A stretch of 64,000 nt of DNA from Clytia hemisphaerica. Taxonomy: Eukaryota; Cnidaria; Hydrozoa; Leptothecata; Clytiidae. The stretch spans positions 62,001-126,000 of the forward strand of contig CACVBU010001212.1 of the NCBI GenBank assembly GCA_902728285.1. Reading direction: 5' to 3'. Made by a program: the position numbers and the translations under genes. How positions within the stretch are numbered: position 1 is the first letter of the stretch; every line of letters begins with the position of its first letter. The notes below the pieces were generated by a model that saw only the letters and a program-made list of their open reading frames with translations, was not told the origin of the DNA and ran no database searches. Shown here piece by piece: positions 5,023-43,828 of the stretch.

Positions 5023-8000
5023 TCAATCTTTTTCTTCGCTAACCGATGTACCAGACTCACTTTCGCATCTCTTCCATTTCGTTAAAGTGGGCGGTGGAGC
5101 GTATTTTTCACACTCGCAACAACCTAAGCTACTTGATGACGCCGTATAAGGAGGTGAACGTCTATACGACGGGAACCTATCCGGACTACTGCATACCCGT
5201 GTATACGGCTTCCGGAATGGATACATTGTCGGCCGTTCCGGTGGTGATTGACTACGGTATGTCCGTAATTCACTTCTAGAGAGAGGTGATAATCGCTCCA
5301 TTAAGAATGGTGGCCTGTCATAACCAGATAAAATTGTGGAATTTTTTGATTCCTGATGTGAGGATGTGGTTTTGGGTTTGGGTTTTGGTTTTGAATGGCA
5401 TTCTTTAACGTATTTCTTCAACTTGTATCGGTGGTTTTGGAACCAAATTTTAACCTGAAAGAGTAAATAAAAAAAATTCAGAAAACAGAGTTGATTAGAG
5501 TTGATAAAATAAACATTTACGTTCCATACACGAACCGGTAAATTTTGGCTCATGAATTGACTGGAGTCGTTTATAATGCGTGTAATACAGCAGTATAGGC
5601 ATAATACGATTGTTGTTATGGCATTTAGTTTGTGTAAACTAAAATTTGTTGCCTCCATTAGTTTTTGCTTTATTTCTACTATGTCTGAATTAGTCGTCTA
5701 ACTTGATAGACTTAACCTGATAACAGATTGCGTATTTTCTGGCCCAGTACGCTGAAGCTTCAGCGTGTTGCGTTGAGAAAACTCTACAGCTGTTATCTGG
5801 TTAGCTAGATTAGCTTAGGCAGGGCTGTTGTAACTCTTTGAAATTTTTATGCTTAAATTTTATTCTTAAAATGTTCTTAATATAATGTGACTTTAGAACA
5901 TTATTCATTCGTTTCAAGCCTTTATTTGGCGGGAAAATTATACGATATAGCAATGTCTTATTTAGTTTGTTCATAAATATTTGATAGAGCTGAAATCTAT
6001 TTGAAGGTTTTGGCCAATTTTCAGCCTCGTGTTCTTATAAATAAATTAAGAAACTTAAAACTGATATCACGGAGAGTCTTCTGAGAACTTTTAAAACCTT
6101 CCAACCAATACGTCACTTAAAAAATAGAAAAAGTTCTCAGAAGACTCTCCAGTGGTGTCTATCATGAATACTCATACCTGTGTTGGTGTCAAGTTGATTT
6201 TCCTTGATAAGAAATCACGTTGTGGAACTGTCAAATATTGTTGATATTGAAAGACTTTTTGTAACTCGTACGTCTGTTCTCTTGTAAAGAGAATCCGTCT
6301 TTTGCGGTGTGTCTTAACATCAGATGAAGTCGTTGGTGATTCAAGACTGTGATTGTGTTCTTCAAGCAGTTCATCTGGACCTATAGAGTTTAAAAATCGA
6401 TCATATATCTTTTTCATTGTCTAAATAAATTTTTCTAATTTCCACCCTGAAAATTGTCCAAAATAACCAAAAGATGACTCTGGCAGGTACAAATGTTAAA
6501 AATAGTAAATTTGGGACACTGTCATATATTTTAAGAACCTAGAAAAGGGACCCTGACCAGCGGCACGTCCCGGTCCCATTTTCACCTGAGTGCCTCAACC
6601 GGGCTTTACACCCACCACAGAGGCAGAATTTCCTAGAATACCGAATATTCGAATCTCTTTGTTATCTTTAATTTTAATCAATCCGATTTCGTGTCTTAAA
6701 GGGACATAAAAGTATGGCGAAATTTGTAAACAAACCGTATGCAGCGGGATACAAAATCAAAACAAATGTCACATGTCAAAATAAAAAAAAACAAACAAAT
6801 ATGGCTGATTTCGATTGTTTCAAATTACATTAACCTGATACCTCGAAACAAAATTTCCATAACTCGAACAATTTTACTGTGTCCCCCGTCCGTGTTCGAG
6901 GTATGGCGTTACTGTATTAAGGGCTTTGACCATAGTGAATTTTTCATATTTGCCATGCATAGAATATAGATTTTTGCCTCAAAACTATGGCATCTTATAG
7001 ATTTTTTGCTAGGCCAACTATTCCTAAATCTGAAAATTTAAAAAATGCGATTAAAAAACTTGATGAAGAAGAAAATGAAGACTTTTGCGAAAAAGAGCAT
7101 TTCAACTTCGAGGACCTTATTTTAGGCGAAGAAAAAACATTTTGAAAAATTTTTGTGTTAGATGATGATCTTTAACCAAACTAAAATTAGATTTTCGGAA
7201 CATTTTTGTGAAAGCTTCTTTGAATCAATTTTATCTTAAAAAAGTGGTTTTTGACCAATTTTCCATGCCGATTTTTAGTGGAAAAACGGTCATAATTTTT
7301 GATACATCTATTTAGAAAATTCTTCCGAAAAAAATTAAAACAGTTCATTTCTTTGCGGACAATTTAAAACAATTTCGAAAGAAAAGCATTTTTGTTAAGA
7401 GGTTAATGTAACATTTTATTAATTTTATTTTTAAAGTTCATAACGTCATTTCTGTAATTTAATTCTTAATTACTCTTGACAGAATACATTATCAAATAAC
7501 TTGTAAAGGCAATCTTTTTGTTAAAAATGTCAAGGAACCCAAACAAAATTTTATCTTCAAATCCCTTAACAAATTGTTTGACTATGGTCAGAGCCAGCCT
7601 TTTAACTTGGATGAAGGTTTATACTAGTAGCTAAAAATGCTTGCACAAAGGCTTTTTTTGGAACTTTCATCTTTTTCATCATCTGTAAGACACGCTTTTA
7701 CTTTTTTCACGGGACAGGGCTCTCGCATTCAGACTTTGTCGTCTTAATTTCTACACCCCTGTGTCACAGACCCACTGGGACCCCAGCCCCACTGGAAAAT
7801 TAAGCAGAAATTTCGTCCCCAGTGGCAAAATACCCTTAAATTACAGCCCCGCTTCAAAAGGAATTTTTATTCCCCACTGAGGAAAAAAGTTCCACCGGGG
7901 CTGTGAGACAGAGGTGTCTTTATCATCTTACTTTCTTGTCTTGAAAGAAAATTGAGAAGGGTACAAACTTGATCTTGAAGACAAAATATTTACTTACCAC

Positions 8001-8172: not shown

Positions 8173-9267
8173 GTTTTCCTAGAGTAAAACCCGACGGCTA
8201 ATTCAAACTATGTTTTGAAAGCGAATGAGTAAGCGTTCTCAACTGTGTGAAATTTACTCGTTGTATCGGAATTATTTTAACGCAAAAAAGGAAAAGAAAA
8301 ACTCGATGGGCTTTTAACCAAATTAAAACAAACTATCAAAAAAGGGGTTGACCTCCCCCTGCAACTCTTTTGTTCCAAAAAATATTATAAATCAAAGTAT
8401 AAATAAAATACTCTATTGTGGTTATTGTTCTATGGGAGCTTTTAAACAAAAGAAAGTTAATCAACTTCAGAAAACTATTGTTTGTCTCAAGAAGAATAAT
8501 TAGTAGAACAAAAGGAAAGAAAAAAAATTAACTTTATACTTTTAATAGCTCCCCTCCCCTCTTTTCAAATTCCACCAATAAGGAACTTTAAGTCAATTAT
8601 ATTGGGTAGGTGGCCCCTTTTTTTGCACACTTTTGTTTATGCGAAAAAGTTTGATTTTTATATAAACTTTGATTTCGAGAATAAAAAAACACTTACTAGG
8701 GAGTCTTTAATTTTTCTCTCCAGAGGGTATTTTGAAATATCCCTAGGTTATTTTACTTTATTTGATCTTTTTAGTTAATTCCAATCAAAGATTCTAAGTT
8801 TGATACTAAAAAGTCTTAAGAAATATCCCCTTAAACATCTTTGAGCCAATCACTTAGCCTAGCAGGGAAGTGGGTTTTGCTTATTTTATTGTGATTTTTT
8901 TCCTTTCGTTTTTCTTTTAATTTTGTTGTTTTATCTATCGAAAAAAAAAAATTTTTTTTTTAATTTTATAAATACACTCACTTGTCAAAAAGTATCAATA
9001 AAAAATCTTGAATCTTTTTCTTTTGTTTAAAACAGAAATTATAGACCACTCCCTTCCTTCCTATACATTTTAAAGTTAATCTACCGAATCAATATTTTTT
9101 TCAGTCAAGGTTTCTTTTATTTCGAGTATAGTCGTTTATCTAAACTAATCGATTTTAATCGGTTTTTAAGATTTTCCAGTCGTTTTATTTTTAAGAGTAC
9201 TCTGTTTTTTATTATATTTTTTCTAAAAATTATGCCTCTGCATTTCCTTATTTAGAGTAATGCATAT

Positions 9268-9380
9268 TATTCATGACGTAATGTTTTCTACGGAAAGACC
9301 CCGGTTTTTGCCACTAGTTTAAATTTGCCACTACTGGCTAAAACCGGGGTATTTCTGTAGAAAACGTTACGTCATGAATA
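9268..9380. repeat. Palindromic MITE, TTCATGACGTAAYGTTTTCTA arms
   Basis: Two arms of about 45 bp, at roughly 9268-9314 and 9335-9380, are near-perfect reverse complements (TCATGACGTAATGTTTTCT... / ...AGAAAACGTTACGTCATGA) around a spacer of about 20 bp. Confidence 0.88.
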
Positions 9381-9456
9381 TCATGAATTTTGAACATTCA
9401 AAAATATATAGTATAAAGGGCCCCTATAAACAACTCTAACGAAAGGGTAGACTATG

Positions 9457-11847: not shown

Positions 11848-14006
11848 TCATGACATTAAGCAATTCGATGGCTGAGCCTGTTCATCTCTTCTCACGTTGG
11901 TCCCAGGGGTGCGAATATCCACTACTTCACCAAACGGAATCGGAATTCGAGCATGGAAAAATGGATTTTCCAATAAATCGGGATATGATTTTCGGAATAT
12001 TTGGACTCCATCATTAAGTTTAACCATACTGGCTTCTTTTAGTGGACCACGCAATAAATTGTGGACTAGACCGGTTGATTCATGTCGTGAGATTTGACCT
12101 TGTTGTGTAACGCTGCTAATAATATCTTTGATGACGAAATTGTTTCTGTGAAGGGGTTTGATTGTATTTTTCCAAAGTGAGTTCATCTTCCTATAAATAT
12201 ACCGAGATTATTAGATAATAAGATATAGATTTTGTGATACACAAACTATTTTTTCTACTTATATATGTGGTCTGACACAGGACTTTTCTCGGGGCACGCT
12301 GTATTTGGCGAAAAGCAATTGCGCCACAAAATGATAAATCTTGTTGATTTCATTAAAACGCGTCAAATTCTAAGAAACTTGGCTCGTCAATCAAATTCTA
12401 AGAAATTTGGCTCGTTAAAAAATTACCTTATTGACTTGTCATATTTACTTTGATCAGTATTGACGATATGGAATTGATCTATGAAAATCTCCAACACAGT
12501 ACCATCTTCAAACGCAATAGCAGATAGGGTTTCTTTGCCTTTTTCAGCTGGATTGAAAGCTTCTTTTACAGCCTGGTATATCTCGTTTGTGTGACGGGCC
12601 AGGTCGTCAGTTACATGGTCCAATGGTCCCAAAGGATCAACAAACTTTAGGGAAATCTTCACTATGTCATCATATTCTTTCTTATTTATAATCGCGTTGT
12701 GGAATATTTCGTTTTGTTGCATAACAAGTTTGGCTTCCTCTCTAACTTCTGGATGCAAATCGCGAAGAACGTTGATATTAGGGCAAAAGAAGTGCTCGCA
12801 ATAATTATTCTCCAGTCTCTCTAACATGTAGTTATATATCATACATGCCAACGCCGGAACATTTTTGATGTAACCATTATTGCTTCGATCCGCTGGTTTA
12901 CATTTCTGATTGAAAATATTAAACATACTATTCTTAACAAAGAATGAAGTCAATAGTTCTTTCTTTGGTAAATCAGGACGATTTTCTCCAATTTTTGATA
13001 AGAATTTGTAATAATAGCTTTTCACCATAAGGAAGGCCAACTTTTGTTGCTCTGAGAAAAATGAAATGATTGATGCCTCGGCGTTTGACATTGACCAACG
13101 CCACATGAGATCGCCTATAACATGATTTATTGGGTTTGCTTTAGGTATGACATGGCAACCTCCTTCTCGGATTTCTTTTGCTTCATCAACTGTAACAATA
13201 CCGTTTCCAGCTTTCAATAGACTCCCACCCTTGTAAACTTCTGGCCATTGATCACTACAGAACACAGATGCGATATTATCACAAGAAAAGACACAAGCAT
13301 GCGTTTTCCCATCATTATCTTTATAAGTACCATTAACATCAAAGGTGATTGACACTCCATCTTGGTCTAAATCACCCACGCACACCGATTCGACGCCTTT
13401 GAAATTCTCTCTAAATTTCTGACGTAGAACATTTGAATACTTTTTGAAGTATTTTTGAAGCTCATTCTTGAAATCCTCCTTTACTTCAGAGCAAGAAAGA
13501 TAACGAGGCCTATCAACTAAATTTCGGGAATCATTGTTGTTGAGGGTTTCCCTGAAAGGGAATCTTGCCACCATTTTCTTGCCACCAGTATGGTCACCAT
13601 TTTCTTGCGCAAAGAAGGTTTTTAGAAAAACATACTCCTCACTGAGTATGTCAAAAGGATTGACAATGCTGGCAGGGAGCAACAAGACACCAGCCTTACT
13701 TGTAGGACGATGGCAAATCTCACCAATTTCATACATGACATCCCACTCCAATAGTTTATCACCTTTGTTTTTGGACCAACGCGCCAAAGCAGTTCCATCT
13801 TTGCAGCTTCCACGTAATCTCAATGGAATACCAGGAAGAAATGCAGACGTCTTATTCAATTCGTCGATTAAAACTTGGCTTTTTTTACACCATTTTTTGT
13901 CAGCTTCATGAAACGCCATCAAGCTGTGCAATGTGTCCAATATTTTTGAAATGTCTTCGTCAGCTGGTTTTGGGTCGTGAGCTATAACAAAATTTGTAAT
14001 GATCAA
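11848..14006 (-). CDS. cGAS-like receptor (Mab-21 nucleotidyltransferase)
   Basis: Main exon 14006-12427; a probable terminal exon 12190-11848 joins in phase (ATAAG/GTAATT to TATAG/GAAG, a 236-bp intron) giving about 640 aa. The nucleotidyltransferase signature is RGSCKDGT (G66-S67) followed by LLEWDVMYEI, giving metal-binding candidates E87 and D89; D223 in SITFDVNG is the likely third acidic residue. The Mab-21 C-terminal lobe shows MWRWSMSNAE (302-310), matching the family WRxSxSxxE, then the helical bundle. No cysteine-rich zinc-thumb insertion separates this motif from the next helix, unlike vertebrate cGAS. Family knowledge: such receptors sense foreign nucleic acid and make cyclic dinucleotides for STING. 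Ligand and product cannot be read here. ATG 14006 lies just upstream of a possible acceptor (TTATAG at about 13982), so an earlier exon may exist. The last 113 residues match nothing I know. Confidence 0.82.
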
Positions 14007-14079
14007 TTGTTTGAGTTACTAACCTACTTACTCCAAATTATTCAATAAATCTCGGTCGGAATTAGTACGTATCCCGTTA

Positions 14080-14340
14080 ACTCTATTCATAATGGGCTTT
14101 TAGGGGCGGTTTAAAACTAGGGAGGCTGTTCCTGTACCACCCCTTAACTTTTGATCTAGTGGGTCTTTTTGGATGAAATTTGACACACAAGACACATGTC
14201 ATACAAGGTAACTTTTGACAAAATCTTTTTTGATGACGTCAAAGTGGGCAAAAACCGAAAATTTCCTTTGTTCTTTTAGATAGCTATTGTATTCTAGCAA
14301 AGGCTTCAAAATTGCCTGAGTCTAAAATCCTAAAATGCTT
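14080..14340. repeat. Dispersed ~260-bp repeat (copy A)
   Basis: Shares long stretches with 40048-40330 in the same orientation, for example CTGTACCACC, TAACTTTTGACAAAA, TGATGACGTCA and ACCGAAAATTTCCTTTGTTC. The two copies differ by scattered substitutions and short gaps. Confidence 0.8.
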
Positions 14341-27695: not shown

Positions 27696-28882
27696 TCAAC
27701 TTTCATCTTCATCTTTGATCAAGCTCAACGAACGCACACCCAAACCGAAAGTACCTTCTACGAAGTCCGGATTAAATTTCCCATCCACTGTCACGTGACT
27801 GATCAATACACCAAGAAAGTCAACTTTACTAAAATCTACGTTGCCAGGAGACGATAACACGTGACCAAACATGGTAGGCCAAAAAGAATACAAATCCAAA
27901 ACAACAGTGTGCCATTCGCCATCTGGTTCCACAATAAATTCAGCTTGCCAATTAAACGATTTCAAGTGCGCCTCGTTGGCCATTTGGAATTTGTAACGAA
28001 TATTTTTTGTATCGAGGTTCATTACCTCTAACGATATAGCTTTGGTACCACTCAACAATTCTTTCATTTCATCCTTATTATCTGGTAGAATGCGAACACT
28101 TGCAAAGCCACCCCGGTTTTTTTTAGACAAGGATCCGGAAAATTCGATGCATTCTTTGACCTAGAAAATATAAGGGTTGTCACAAATTTAATAGACCTTT
28201 TCATAAATTACGTCACGAACAACACTTGTCTCGTTTTGAAATTATTGCCATGGTGATCAACTCCCATCGGATTTTAACAAAACTACTTTCGATTCATAAA
28301 AAAATCATTTCATGTCTCAAGGGACAAAATCAAAAAGCCTATTTAAAGCCAGGTCAATGATATTCAAATGGAGATCAGGCAGCGTTATATATGTATAAAT
28401 TAGCTTTCAACAAAGGTCCCTCGATTTTAATTTAATTTTTTTATAAAAATTTCTTTATACCTTATTACACGAATATAAGTAAAGATGTATTTAACGCCCT
28501 ATAGATTAACACGCCAAAAATTAACACGAATTTTATTGCTTTTGCAAGGGCCAAGCTGGAGTTTTTACAAGATCTTATTGGATTTGGTTGGTCGTTAACA
28601 TGTAGTAATGAAAATGGTTGGTTTTAATTAAGGGTTTTTTTATCAACATGAAATTTTTCAAATCGTGTTAATAAAATGACTAGTAATATTCGTGCAATAA
28701 GGTAATGCGAACTTTATCACACGAACCTCATCGAATTGTGTGTTGGCTTCACTTGATCCGCCCATCACTCGATCATTGCACGTTGTCATACCGTACTGAA
28801 ATAGTGAACCGTCTTTCTGTCGAAAATCAATCACCATCAAACCTTTCTTCTTTTGCCACTTCTCACGTTTGTTCAATTTTTG
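27696..28882 (-). CDS. CIA30-domain protein (NDUFAF1-like), partial 5'
   Basis: Two minus-strand exons join in phase 0: 28882-28727 (acceptor TTTCAG/CAAAAA, donor GAG/GTTCGT) and 28160-27696 (acceptor TTCTAG/GTCAAA, stop at 27696). The first shows NDRVMGGSS, the hallmark start of CIA30 domains. The second shows FSGSLS, GGFASVR and GEWHTVVLDLYSFWPT, ending with LGVRSLSLI. CIA30/NDUFAF1 proteins assist assembly of mitochondrial complex I. Other CIA30-domain proteins of uncertain role exist, and this sequence has the NDRVMGG form rather than the diverged human one, so the exact role is uncertain. Upstream exons with any targeting signal were not found. It ends in an acidic tail (KDEDES). Confidence 0.78.
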
Positions 28883-29778: not shown

Positions 29779-31758
29779 CAGGGGGGGGGAGGGATCGAGT
29801 CAGTGTACTGGCCCATAGCTGGTGGGGTGGTGTATTTTTTAGGTTAAATTGAGTTAGTACAGTGTACTAAAAGGGTGGTCCTCTGAGAAAAATACAATGA
29901 AAAAGTTAGTACAGTGTACTAAAAGGGTGGTCCTCTGAGAAAAATACAATGAAAAAGTTAGTACAGTGTACTAAAAGGGTGGTCCTCTGAGAAAAATACA
30001 ATGAAAAAGTTAGTATACTGTACTAGAAAGGTTGGTGTTCTGAATTGATACACACTGACAAGTTACATTGTACATTGTACTAATTTCATGGTAAAAACAC
30101 ACAAACCCAGGGAATTTCCATGTATATTTGCCCTAATTTGCCAGGTCCAGCTGGTCCGAGACCAAAATCAAAAAATTAAGATCAGTGATATATTACGAGT
30201 ATAGGTGATTTCTTTACCTAACTCGAGATATTAATCCTTATAACAGTGTTTTTAGTGTTTTTTAGCCAGAAACAGCTGTTTTGTCCAGTTTTTGCGCTTT
30301 CGGAAGCTCAATATCTCGAGTTAGGTACTGAAAACACCTATACTCGCAATATATCACTAATCTTAATTTTTTGAGAGCTTTTCAAAAATATACAACAGGT
30401 CTCCGTTTTCTCAAGCTAAAATTTTCATTAATTTTTCACCCTATGATTTTTGCCTGAGACCGTCGTATTTGTCCGAAAATCACACCAAAGTGTCCGAAAA
30501 AAAATTGGCACCCAAGTTATTTTGATTCCCCTACCCCTTAGCTCTCCAAAAATGTATAACAAGTGCTTTGACTAAAAAAATCGAGCAATTTTACAAATTC
30601 CCCCCTACTAATTGATGTTAATTGAAAAAAATCTGTATATAAGTGAAATCACCGGGGGGAGGGGGTGAAAACGACCGTACGTTCGGCCAAAAATCAGGTC
30701 TCTAAAATTGGTCCCTTACAGTGCAGGAAAAATTTGGCTGAAAAGCGACCCTTATAGTGTAATTTTTCGAATTTTTTTGCCCTTTCAGGGCAAAATTTTT
30801 TTAAATTTCTCAAATTTTACCTCAAAATTTGATATTTTATAAAGTTTTACAGGGAAAGCACCTTTTTATATATTTTGTATAATATTACATTTGATAAAAG
30901 ATTTTCCGTTTCAGTTTGTGTACAATGTTATTATTATTTTTTTTATTTATAGAAGTGTATTTCTCAGGTCTATTGACCTCTATGAAACAATCTTACATCT
31001 TTACAATTTATAGATCTTATCATTCCATTCGTTTGTCAATTCTGTTTTACAGTTAGGCACCTTGGTATCCAACCCACTTATTAAGTCTTTTATTTTTATT
31101 TTTCAAAAAAGAAAAACTGATACAGCTTGCCAGACAATCAGAAATCAAGTCAAAAGAAGGGAAATAACTCAAAGTTGGTTTTGAGTGTTTTGACGTGCTA
31201 ATTTCAGCTAATTTCACTGTATTTGATTGACTTTGCTTTGTCTGTTTTATTGTTTCAGTGTTTGTACTATATAAGGATTCAAGTATTTTAATATTCAAAT
31301 CTTTCCTTTTTTATTTTAGTGCTTTTCTTAGCAAAATGCTTCAAAACCTTTGTATATGCTGGCAATTGAACTTATCTGGCCAAGAAGAAATTAGAGCAGT
31401 GCACTATAAGGGGTTGTTTCTAAACTTATCTGATCGAAAAAACAGCTAGTACAGTGTACTGAAAGGGTGGTAATAATAATCTAGTTAAAGAAAAACCTCA
31501 GTACAGTGTACTAAAAGGGTGGTATCAAAGCTCCGGCTGTGGAAGAAAGCTAGTATAGTGTACTAAAAGGGTGGTGTCAAAGCCCCGACCGTGAAAAAAA
31601 GTTAGTACAGTGTACTGAAAGGGTGGTGTCAAAGCCCTGACCGTGAAAAAAAGTTAGTACAGTGTACTAAAAAGGGTGGTGGTCTAATTTTTTGGAAAAA
31701 AATCCAAAAATCAAGTTAGTACCATATGGTCCAGTACACTGACTTGGTACCCCCCCTG
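29779..31758. mobile_element. TIR transposon, 1980 bp, 7-bp target duplication, subterminal repeats
   Basis: The element begins CAGGGGGGGG and ends CCCCCCCTG. CTCCACG directly flanks both ends (29772-29778 and 31759-31765). Inward of each end lies AGTCAGTGTACTGG (left) and its inverse (right). Subterminal copies of GTACAGTGTACTAAAAGGGT occur about four times on the left (52-bp spacing from 29857) and five times on the right (31446-31680), all in the same direction. An internal palindrome sits at 30169-30375. No transposase frame is seen. CAGGG termini hint at hAT-like elements, but those give 8-bp duplications, so the family is open. Confidence 0.82.
30169..30375. repeat. Palindrome of ~65-bp arms inside the 2-kb element
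   Basis: AAAAATTAAGATCAGTGATA...ACCTAACTCGAGATATT (30169-30232) is inverted at 30309-30375 with few mismatches. It may be a nested MITE. Confidence 0.85.
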
Positions 31759-37650: not shown

Positions 37651-40047
37651 TGTGTTTGGTGGTTTTGAGATATTTAAAAAGTGCAATCGATAGATAAACC
37701 TTTAAATCCCTTTCCCTAAGTGTTTCACCTAAAAGGTAAAAAAAATAATAAAGGCAATTTTCTTCATAAATTAATGAATTAATAGTTCAATTCCCAAAAA
37801 CATTAAGAACATTTTTAGGCGTAAAACTCAAAAAGTTAAGAACATCCTAAGGCTTTAAAAATGTCGGATATTCTTATTACAAAAAGGAGTGAATTTTAGT
37901 TCCTATCAAAGATTATTTTATGCAATTATGCGATATATATGCGATTTGTTAGGACCTGAAGATTGCACAAAAACACTAAAAAACACTAAAAATTAAAGAA
38001 CATTTTGATATTTTCAGACTTTTTAAATCCAAAAAGTTAAACACCCTTATAAAAAATATGTATGTACGCGAATAAGTTTGACAAATTATTTGTCACCTAA
38101 AAATCAAAATTTAAAGTATCTAAATTTGACCACGACTGTATTTTATCCAGAGAAATAACTAATTTTGAACATCTTATATATGCATAACAAATGAAAACAG
38201 TGCAATAAGATGATGCACTTTCGATACCTTTTAAAAGTCATTTGAAACTAACCACATCTCTCTCTTGTCTTTGAGAACAAAATAATTCAAATCAAAGTGT
38301 TGTTTTTTTCAAGGATATTACTTTCTATTTTGAAGTGATTATTGGAAAACAAAAAAAAAATGAGAAAAGAAAAAGGGTGATTTCCAAGACAATTGTCTTC
38401 ATAACTTTAGGTTGATTAATCAAGAGGGAAGTGAATAATCTTTTTTTTATTGATGAAATTTATAACTTTAGGTTTGCAAAGAGAGATTTGTTTACAGCCA
38501 GGTCATCAATGATAGTAAAAAAACAATGCAAACGCTTAGACTCTTTTTTATATTGGAACAATTTTTTGAGACTGAAAAACTCTGAAAAATAACAACAATT
38601 GAAGAAGGTTTGAATGACTGAATACTAGGGTAAAAATAGGGTGAGGACTTCTTCAAACATTTTTGAAGCTTTTGGATGTTCTTAACTTTTTGAGATTTAA
38701 GCCTAAAAATGTTCTTAACATGTTCTTATTTTTATCATTTCGTGAATATTTTCGTCCATTTTTCTAGAAATTGGGTGTTTCAGAGTCCGCAAAGTCTTAA
38801 AATTTTCTTAACTTGTTCTTAAAAGATTTTTGCCACCAAAGCCTTATGTTCTTATATAGTTTGTTCTTATAAAAAACGTGTGAAGTTGTTTTGCAAGATC
38901 TTCTCTTAATGAACCCTAAAACGGGGATAGAGGTCACACATTCACAGTGATATAATTAATTCTCTCCATCTAAAACTGTTAAATGGAATTAATCTCTGAT
39001 GTCACGAAAGAACTCTGACATCTGCTATCATAATGAGTATATTATGGTTGTACATAATTCTAGCATTTATAACTGGGAAGAATTTCAACGTTCAACCCTT
39101 TTTATAAAAAAGTCTCTTAATAAAATAAGTTTCAGCTAAATTTCAGCCAACACCTAAGAATAAATTAAGAACAATCCAAGCAACAGGTTTCAGAAATAGC
39201 TTAAGGAAATTTCAATTTAAAATAACACAATATGACAAGCCTGTAAAATCACAAAAAAATATGAACAACTAAAGCCTCAACAAAATTTTTTCTGTTTCTG
39301 GTTCTAATAAAAAAGAGGTCTGTGACCTAGCAAATACTGACAAAGATTGGACAACACGGTGTGTAGTGCAATAATGCAGAAAGTTAATGATGATAAACAT
39401 ATTTGACACCTTTCTTCTGAGTATGCTTCCAAATGCTTTCAGATTCCTAGGCTGCTTACTATTCTCAAAATTGTAATCTTAACTTTACAACTTTGTCAAA
39501 CACTCAGTATGTACACTTTTTCGGAATTTCTCAAAACCAGTACCCTACGAGGGAATGATATTTTGGTGATTTTATTTTACCACCTATCTGGGACTTACAA
39601 ACAGGAACCCTATCAGTGTCACATTCTGTAACCAATACTATCAACACCTAAATATTTCTATCAAAACTGAATATGGAAGCGCCAAGACTCTGATCCATAT
39701 TTTCCAGATCATTTAAAGAAGGCTCATAGGCTTTTTCGCAAAAAGATTTTTTTTAAATCTGAAGTGTTATGCCAGAAACGATTTTATAAAAACCGCCCAC
39801 CAGTTGAGAATTTCTGGCATCTAGAAGCCATTTTTGCCAGTTTTTGCCAACCTTCCGTCCAATATGGAATCTTTTTAACCACCTGCGTGTAGTATTGAAG
39901 AATAGCAAGTTTCTGAAACAAAATGCTGTCTTATTTTATAAAATTTTCAACTTAGTTGAACTCATAAAAACAATTCAACGACATAGAAAATACCAACTAG
40001 ATGTCGAATAATAATTGGGTGTTGCATGGTTTAAGTGTTTAACCTTA

Positions 40048-40330
40048 TTCATACTAAGCTTTTAGGGGCTGTTCAGAACTAGGGGGAGGCTTTTCCTGTA
40101 CCACCTCTTAACTTTTAATCTAATGGGTTATTTTTAATGAAATTTGGCACACAAGATCCTTGTCACATAAGGTAACTTTTGACAAAAAAAATTTTTTGAT
40201 GACGTCACTCATTATTTTTTCACTCATGTCCAAAGTGAATAAGAACCGAAAATTTCCTTTGTTCTTATAAACAGCAATTGTATTCTAACAAAGACTTTTT
40301 TTAATTGCCTGTGTTTAAAATTATTTTATC
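40048..40330. repeat. Dispersed ~260-bp repeat (copy B)
   Basis: Partner of 14080-14340. It carries an extra insert around TCATTATTTTTTCACTCATG after the shared TGATGACGTCA. Confidence 0.8.
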
Positions 40331-43126: not shown

Positions 43127-43828
43127 CTAGCACTCAAGAAAGGAAGTGATGGAATGTTGGGCACGCAAGCGCTGGGACAAAGGCATGTGCAGGTAAAGGT
43201 AAATAGCATCAGACTTCCAGTCACCCATGACAGCTATAGTGTCCAGCGGGCCGCCAGCTTCAAGGGCAAGGGAAGCACCACCCCTTCTGAAGGAATGGGA
43301 ACCATACTGAGCGGAATTGAGACTAAACGAGTGAGGAAGAACTGCAGTGAATGCATGAACTCCTTATACGTGAAGATCCGGTAAGTGACACGAGAAGAAT
43401 CCCTCCAGCAAAAGGCCTGGTCATTGGGACGAGTATGAGGAGTGAGAGAGAACGCACGGGACACGGCCCAAACTGGACACAGGGGAGAAGAGCTTGCAAC
43501 CAGTGGAATGGTAACAATGCGTTGACCAAACTGGATCGTCTTACTCCACCTGACCCTGATCAGAATTGAAGACCCAGAAAAGCTAAAGTCCGAACGAGTG
43601 AGGTAGGTCAAGGGGGAGAACTCTGACACAGAAGAAGGCAGGAGATGGCTCTTACGGAAAAACCCAAAAAAAGAGACCAAGCAGACTACCCAAAACGACG
43701 CATGCTTACTATCCATGAGATTGAGGAGACCACATATATCAGGCCAGAAAATGGAAATGACAACGTACCAGCTTTTGTCAGAAATTGGATTATCAATGAC
43801 AGGTCGTTGAATAGATTTTATTTTAGTT
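43127..43828 (-). pseudogene. DIRS-type tyrosine recombinase fragment (broken)
   Basis: On the minus strand, from about 43828 (open after a stop) to 43234, the frame reads CGLLNLMDSKHASFWVVCLV then FFGFFRKSHLLPSS, LTRSDFSFSG and VRWSKTIQFGQR. Near 43310-43325 one base appears lost. The next frame continues SAQYGSHSFRRGGASLALEA and GDWKSDAIYLYL, ending at a stop (43127-43129). HSFR supplies the H-x-x-R catalytic motif, and the Tyr pair in AIYLYL holds the nucleophile candidate. This is the catalytic C-terminal domain of the tyrosine recombinases of DIRS-like retrotransposons and related eukaryotic elements. No reverse transcriptase is seen and the 5' part is missing, so it is a truncated, frameshifted relic. 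Its G+C content is well above its surroundings, consistent with insertion. Confidence 0.85.

Follow-up and report, generated by a model that had tools for sequence, protein, structure and literature searches.

In animals, 3,020 cGAS-like receptors (cGLRs) are already catalogued in the 2023 preprint of Li et al. (PMC9980059), so another one is to be expected. As set out in the search sections of that preprint, cGLRs carry a long motif: h[QT]GS, 8-20 residues, [DE]h[DE]h, 50-90 residues, and h[DE]h (PMC9980059). Homology in both lobes and a match to an AlphaFold2 model are also asked for, and the methods give a shorter form, a G[S/G] loop with [E/D]h[E/D] X50-90 [E/D] (PMC9980059). For nucleic acid-sensing cGLRs, the same text gives a calculated isoelectric point (pI) above 8.5 (PMC9980059).

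The zinc ribbon of human cGAS is reported to be missing from human MB21D2, from the Tribolium cGLR, and from aligned insect cGLRs (PMC8410604). Human Mab21L1 and Mab21L2 are listed by Li et al. with complete putative active sites, and whether the two synthesize nucleotide signals is described as not known (PMC9980059). The shrimp Mab21 proteins, according to the account of them in PMC12928593, activate a kinase directly, bind neither dsDNA nor dsRNA, and make no cGAMP.

Here, we describe a candidate relative of these proteins in the hydrozoan Clytia hemisphaerica. The gene lies in a 64,000-nucleotide stretch of contig CACVBU010001212.1 (assembly GCA_902728285.1, positions 62,001 to 126,000), which we call the window; all coordinates below are positions in it.

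Gene structure

The minus strand carries a 530-codon stop-to-stop frame at 14015-12423, followed by a second frame at 12207-11848. Among 20 simulated windows of the same first-order (nearest-neighbor) composition, the longest frame in any of the six reading frames reached 125 to 190 codons. The 530-codon frame is thus not a product of chance. Our spliced model joins two minus-strand exons, 13981-12427 and 12190-11848, into a protein of 631 residues:

12427..13981, minus strand: exon A, holding the region ahead of the GS loop, the nucleotidyltransferase core (GS, EWDV, and D234), the Mab-21 C-lobe, and the start of the C-terminal extension (open frame; Pfam Mab-21 and Mab-21_C matches below cut-off; splice sites; hhalign score of 63 versus a shuffle maximum of 23)
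12191..12426, minus strand: intron of 236 nt, GTAATT...TATAG (splice consensus and frame)
11848..12190, minus strand: exon B, the last 113 residues and a TGA stop at 11848 (spliced model)

The start of exon A at 13981 is set by the splice acceptor TTTTGTTATAG/CTCACG and that of exon B at 12190 by the acceptor TATTTATAG/GAAGATG, while the exon A donor reads AATAAG/GTAATT at 12427/12426 (slashes mark exon boundaries). We infer all of these sites from consensus and frame. The join across the 236-nt intron preserves the reading frame, with 517 full stop-free codons in exon A and 113 in exon B.

An initial annotation of this DNA had described a single frame spanning 11848..14006, with no strand given. 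The feature is indeed coding and its end at 11848 stands, but it lies on the minus strand and consists of two frames joined across an intron. The proposed first base, 14006, belongs to a TTG codon that probably lies within an intron, the exon beginning at 13981.

Residues are numbered here from His1 (codon 13979-13977); adding 12 gives the open-frame number, and adding 9 the number used in the initial annotation. The earliest in-frame ATG of exon A is Met21, 36 residues ahead of GS, so the model probably lacks a 5' exon. Searching as far as 24000 for ATG-to-donor segments with the required phase, and with donors that agree with the consensus at seven or more of nine positions, we obtained three candidate first exons, none convincing. 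Nearby, an ATG at 14090 opens a frame that has a GTAAGT donor, but by eye its phase is wrong. By analogy with cGAS, the region preceding the GS loop would be the spine helix.

Homology to the Mab-21/cGAS superfamily

A profile search, as the initial annotation had proposed, returned two Pfam domains in the right order within the open frame, each below its own curated cut-off of 24.1 bits. Mab-21 (20.3 bits, E 6e-4) aligned to residues 160-317 of the frame through profile positions 55-195 of 197; for Mab-21_C (20.2 bits, E 6.8e-4), residues 337-427 aligned to profile positions 7-95 of 102. A 408-residue core scored 20.9 bits against the Mab-21 profile, versus 20.3 for the open frame. In a phmmer search of the PDB (up to E 10), four entries were returned. 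The top entry was an unrelated peptidase (E 0.047), and the second was cGAS-like receptor 1 (8gjw, E 0.082), in which GDLMWRWSMSNAE aligned with GDLLWRISFTHAE.

We then used a reference profile of four PDB-derived sequences: human cGAS, MAB21L1, and segments of 8gjy (cGLR1) and of 5n6i, a cGAS that we take to be from mouse. The human cGAS reference proved identical to 4lew_B, and the MAB21L1 reference to 5eog_A across residues 2-359. Aligned by hhalign with the spliced model, this profile gave a score of 63.5 across 214 columns, with a probability of 94.6 and an E value of 6.9e-8. When the model was restricted to its first 518 residues, the score was 63.4, against a mean of 15.7 and a maximum of 23.0 for 200 shuffles of these residues and 13.5 for their reversal. 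The match begins at the LSAS helix and stops at the YFIPxLNLF end; the GS/EhD part is outside it. Together with the ordered Pfam domains, the margin over the shuffles bears out the superfamily membership first proposed for this protein, and we regard the homology as secure.

Within the superfamily, the protein is an outlier. Each reference scored 185-516 against the other three, versus 63 for the Clytia protein. When a 413-residue core was compared with the references singly, hhalign probabilities were 0.7, 2.0, 8.7, and 17.1, none significant. Given these comparisons and the low profile score, the protein is too divergent for us to say whether it lies nearer cGAS, the cGLRs, or MAB21L1, or to group it with active cGLRs as against non-enzymatic Mab-21 relatives.

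AlphaFold2 single-sequence models of 518 and 408 residues had mean pLDDT values of 33.7 and 35.7, a confidence too low for use. NCBIfam yielded a single match at chance level (E 0.05), and a PADLOC search up to E 1 was empty. Scans of viral contigs and prokaryote genome contigs with the protein and the PDB-derived alignment yielded no confirmed relatives; an animal gene is hardly to be expected in either collection, and the result is silent on rarity. Within the 64-kb window, tblastn with the 631-residue model found no second gene copy, returning only the gene itself and chance matches (E 1.3 or worse).

The candidate active site

The GS, EWDV, and WRxSxSxxE motifs named in the initial annotation are all present on the minus strand, with EWDV reading down from 13748 and the last motif, as WRWSMSNAE, from 13103. 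The candidate active-site residues are as follows:

13806..13811, minus strand: Gly57-Ser58, activation-loop motif (LRGS; motif)
13740..13748, minus strand: E78-W-D80, the first two candidate metal-binding acids, E87 and D89 of the initial annotation (profile alignments and motif)
13278..13280, minus strand: D234 (SCDNI), the likeliest third metal-binding acid (11 of 11 hhalign profiles, Trp-Pro spacing)
13338..13340, minus strand: D214 (ITFDV), proposed as third acid, D223 of the initial annotation and D226 of the open frame (MAFFT only)

To these residues we can apply the published cGLR motifs. The GS of the activation loop is present but preceded by LR, so that the [QT] of h[QT]GS is unmatched. 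Nineteen residues separate GS (57-58) from E78-W-D80-V, which places a [DE]h[DE]h within the 8-20 residues of the long motif. As a literal pattern, however, the long motif matches neither this protein nor any of the four references, human cGAS included. The short form matches this protein and three of the four references, and is satisfied by any acid within range. The published motif is thus not decisive. Homology does extend over both lobes, the nucleotidyltransferase core and the C-terminal helical lobe, through the 214-column hhalign match and the Mab-21_C match below cut-off, with GS/EhD outside the local match. Superfamily membership is supported by sequence comparison; membership among the active cGLRs is putative.

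The third acid was located with 11 hhalign profiles, comprising all combinations of two to four references; they overlap in membership and are not independent. The third-acid column fell on D234 in all 11 of these overlapping profiles, five of them with a probability below 50. The column of the first catalytic Glu fell on E78 in nine profiles and on S94 in the other two. D234 lies 11 residues before a Trp-Pro. The equivalent acid is at the same distance in three references and at 10 residues in the remaining one; for D214 the distance is 31. Although one MAFFT alignment sets D214 rather than D234 under the third cGAS Asp, D234 is probably the better candidate for the third metal ligand, and the original choice of D223 was probably wrong. 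Because the Pfam and 214-column hhalign matches begin past GS and EWDV, the pairing in that part rests on the motif and on lower-threshold alignments. A set of three acids that could form a metal site is plausible.

Zinc thumb and predicted charge

The interval from WRWSMS to FNQKC contains no His, and no Cys before its last residue; in the alignment, the zinc-ribbon segment of human cGAS falls opposite a gap. The zinc thumb, an insertion of vertebrate cGAS, is thus absent, as first annotated. Since the ribbon is also missing from the cGLRs and MB21D2 cited above, its absence is ordinary and does not distinguish this protein.

The predicted pI is 7.06 for the 631 residues of the model, which is short of its 5' exon, and 7.91 for the core; both values lie below the 8.5 given for nucleic acid-sensing cGLRs. 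By the same calculation, the 8gjy segment has a pI of 8.31 and MAB21L1 one of 8.94. Given these two values and the missing exon, pI is weak evidence against a nucleic-acid ligand. The near-neutral predicted charge suggests that the ligand may be something other than plain dsDNA or dsRNA.

Insertions and the C-terminal extension

We find that the candidate acids are widely spaced. From EWDV there are 151 residues to D234 (CDN) and 131 to D214 (FDV), versus 89, 91, 91, and 102 in the references. The first acid is 83 residues from the LSxS helix (46-55 in the references), and the helix is 73 residues from the third acid (46-52). One stretch between the first acids and the helix has intron-like ends:

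13604..13699, minus strand: 96-nt in-frame stretch beginning GTAAGG and ending CAAG (composition and codon score)

Its GC content is 0.44, versus 0.39 for the exon and 0.32 for the predicted intron. Its codon score is equalled or exceeded by 8% of 3000 non-coding stop-free stretches, and 18% of window stretches of about 96 nt are stop-free by chance. This stretch is most likely a coding insertion of 32 residues, the alternative being a short intron.

The C-terminal extension is 218 residues long. It has no Pfam match, and its PDB matches are at E 0.11 or worse. Exon B alone likewise matches nothing in Pfam, and its PDB matches are at chance level (best E 0.62).

Genomic surroundings

The locus had been called repeat-rich, and we agree: repeats flank the gene, and interspersed and tandem repeats are common in the window. 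One lies close upstream of the model:

14077..14328, no strand assigned: interspersed repeat that shares 75% identity with 40039-40321 and lies about 100 nt from exon A, on its upstream side

Tandem repeats include a 19-nt unit, GTATTACAAAGTGTGGCAG, present in about 90 degenerate copies at 933-2639, and two arrays of 52-nt units at 29852-30043 and 31430-31702, 1.4 kb apart, with AGTACAGTGTACTAAAAGGGTGGT common to both. A 60-nt inverted repeat with an 11-nt loop at 9259-9389 is 87% complementary and is perhaps a small foldback element. At 43237-43827 on the minus strand, a 197-codon open frame has no Pfam match up to E 0.1; we take its pattern to resemble that of the tyrosine recombinase of a mobile element.

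Two other genes were seen in the window, both on the minus strand. An NK-class homeobox gene occupies 5401-6306, with its homeodomain at 6306-6166 and 5457-5401, split by an intron just ahead of VKIWFQNHRYK and giving a partial Pfam Homeodomain match below cut-off. The two homeodomain parts are 51% and 74% identical to an NKX2-1 homeodomain, and the gene fits the animal origin of the DNA. At 27699-28160 lies an exon for CIA30 (complex I intermediate-associated protein 30; Pfam E 3.2e-18).

Comparison with known systems

With animal cGLRs (PDB 8gjy and 8gjw, cGAS-like receptor 1), the protein shares the superfamily, the GS loop, the EhD motif, an acid at the third position, a WRxSxSxxE-like C-lobe, and the lack of a zinc ribbon. 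It differs from them in its far greater divergence (63 versus 185-516 in the leave-one-out comparison), its wider acid spacing, its 218-residue C-terminal extension, and its core pI (7.9 versus 8.3 for the 8gjy segment). With vertebrate cGAS (4lew, 5n6i), it shares the two-lobed Mab-21 layout and the candidate triad, but it has no zinc ribbon, and the hhalign probabilities (0.7 with 4lew, 17 with 5n6i) are not significant. With MAB21L1 (5eog), it shares the superfamily layout; in our alignments, DN replaces GS in MAB21L1 and a Gln occupies its third-acid column, whereas the Clytia protein has GS and the acids.

Putative function and alternative explanations

Our preferred explanation, with moderate confidence, is a genuine animal gene whose product is a very divergent nucleotidyltransferase of the Mab-21/cGAS superfamily and most likely works like other cGAS-like receptors. 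Most simply, it would be an invertebrate cGLR, and an active one is our best guess; the activity is putative, as is the role of immune sensor put forward in the initial annotation. By this model, a ligand would bind the back of the spine helix and the C-lobe, as in other cGAS-like receptors, and its binding would rearrange the Gly-Ser loop. E78, D80, and D234 would hold two metal ions, two nucleotides would be joined into a cyclic dinucleotide, and the cyclic dinucleotide would act on STING. Ligand, metal binding, catalysis, product, and action on STING are all modeled on other receptors of this kind. A more specific version, which we consider unlikely, is an active cGLR from a deep branch that has so far escaped sampling. 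Its catalytic domain would hold about 50-60 additional residues, a C-terminal module of 218 residues would follow, its ligand would differ from plain double-stranded nucleic acid, and its product might be a nucleotide signal not yet described.

A real though lesser possibility is a Mab-21-superfamily protein that synthesizes no cyclic nucleotide and serves as a scaffold or developmental factor, much as MAB21L1 does, or the shrimp Mab21 proteins with their direct activation of a kinase. The near-neutral pI and a sequence too divergent for placement within the superfamily are compatible with this, and the shrimp proteins, described as making no cGAMP, provide a precedent (PMC12928593). Because Mab21L1 and Mab21L2 have complete putative sites and an activity that is not understood, retained acids are no proof of catalysis. 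However, the Clytia protein retains both GS and an acid at each of the three places, whereas our alignments show DN and Gln at the GS and third-acid positions of MAB21L1. This retention, the main argument for an enzyme, hints at selection for catalysis.

That the locus is instead a decayed or partial gene copy, a pseudogene in a repeat-rich region, seems improbable. The 517 and 113 codons without a stop, the consensus-like splice sites, and the 125-190-codon limit of chance frames in the 20 simulations all speak for an intact gene, whereas a start codon was not found, the first in-frame ATG of exon A coming only at residue 21; the three upstream first-exon candidates are unconvincing; and an interspersed repeat (14077-14328) lies close by. 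Least credible, and already made very unlikely by an hhalign score of 63 against a maximum of 23 in 200 shuffles and by two rightly ordered Pfam domains with motifs at corresponding places, is a protein outside the superfamily with accidental motif matches, despite sub-threshold Pfam scores, single-sequence comparisons that are not significant, and a PDB cGLR match (E 0.082) ranked behind an unrelated peptidase (E 0.047).

Significance

The putative Clytia cGLR probably adds a further, unusually divergent member to a large family already known. Its value would be modest, as a sequence from the edge of the family that keeps the candidate active-site residues while its remainder has diverged to scores under the curated profile cut-offs. 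The catalytic acids stand farther apart than those of the four references, and the C-terminal region is without a Pfam match. Should the protein prove active, the implication would be that searches with standard profile cut-offs can overlook real enzymes.
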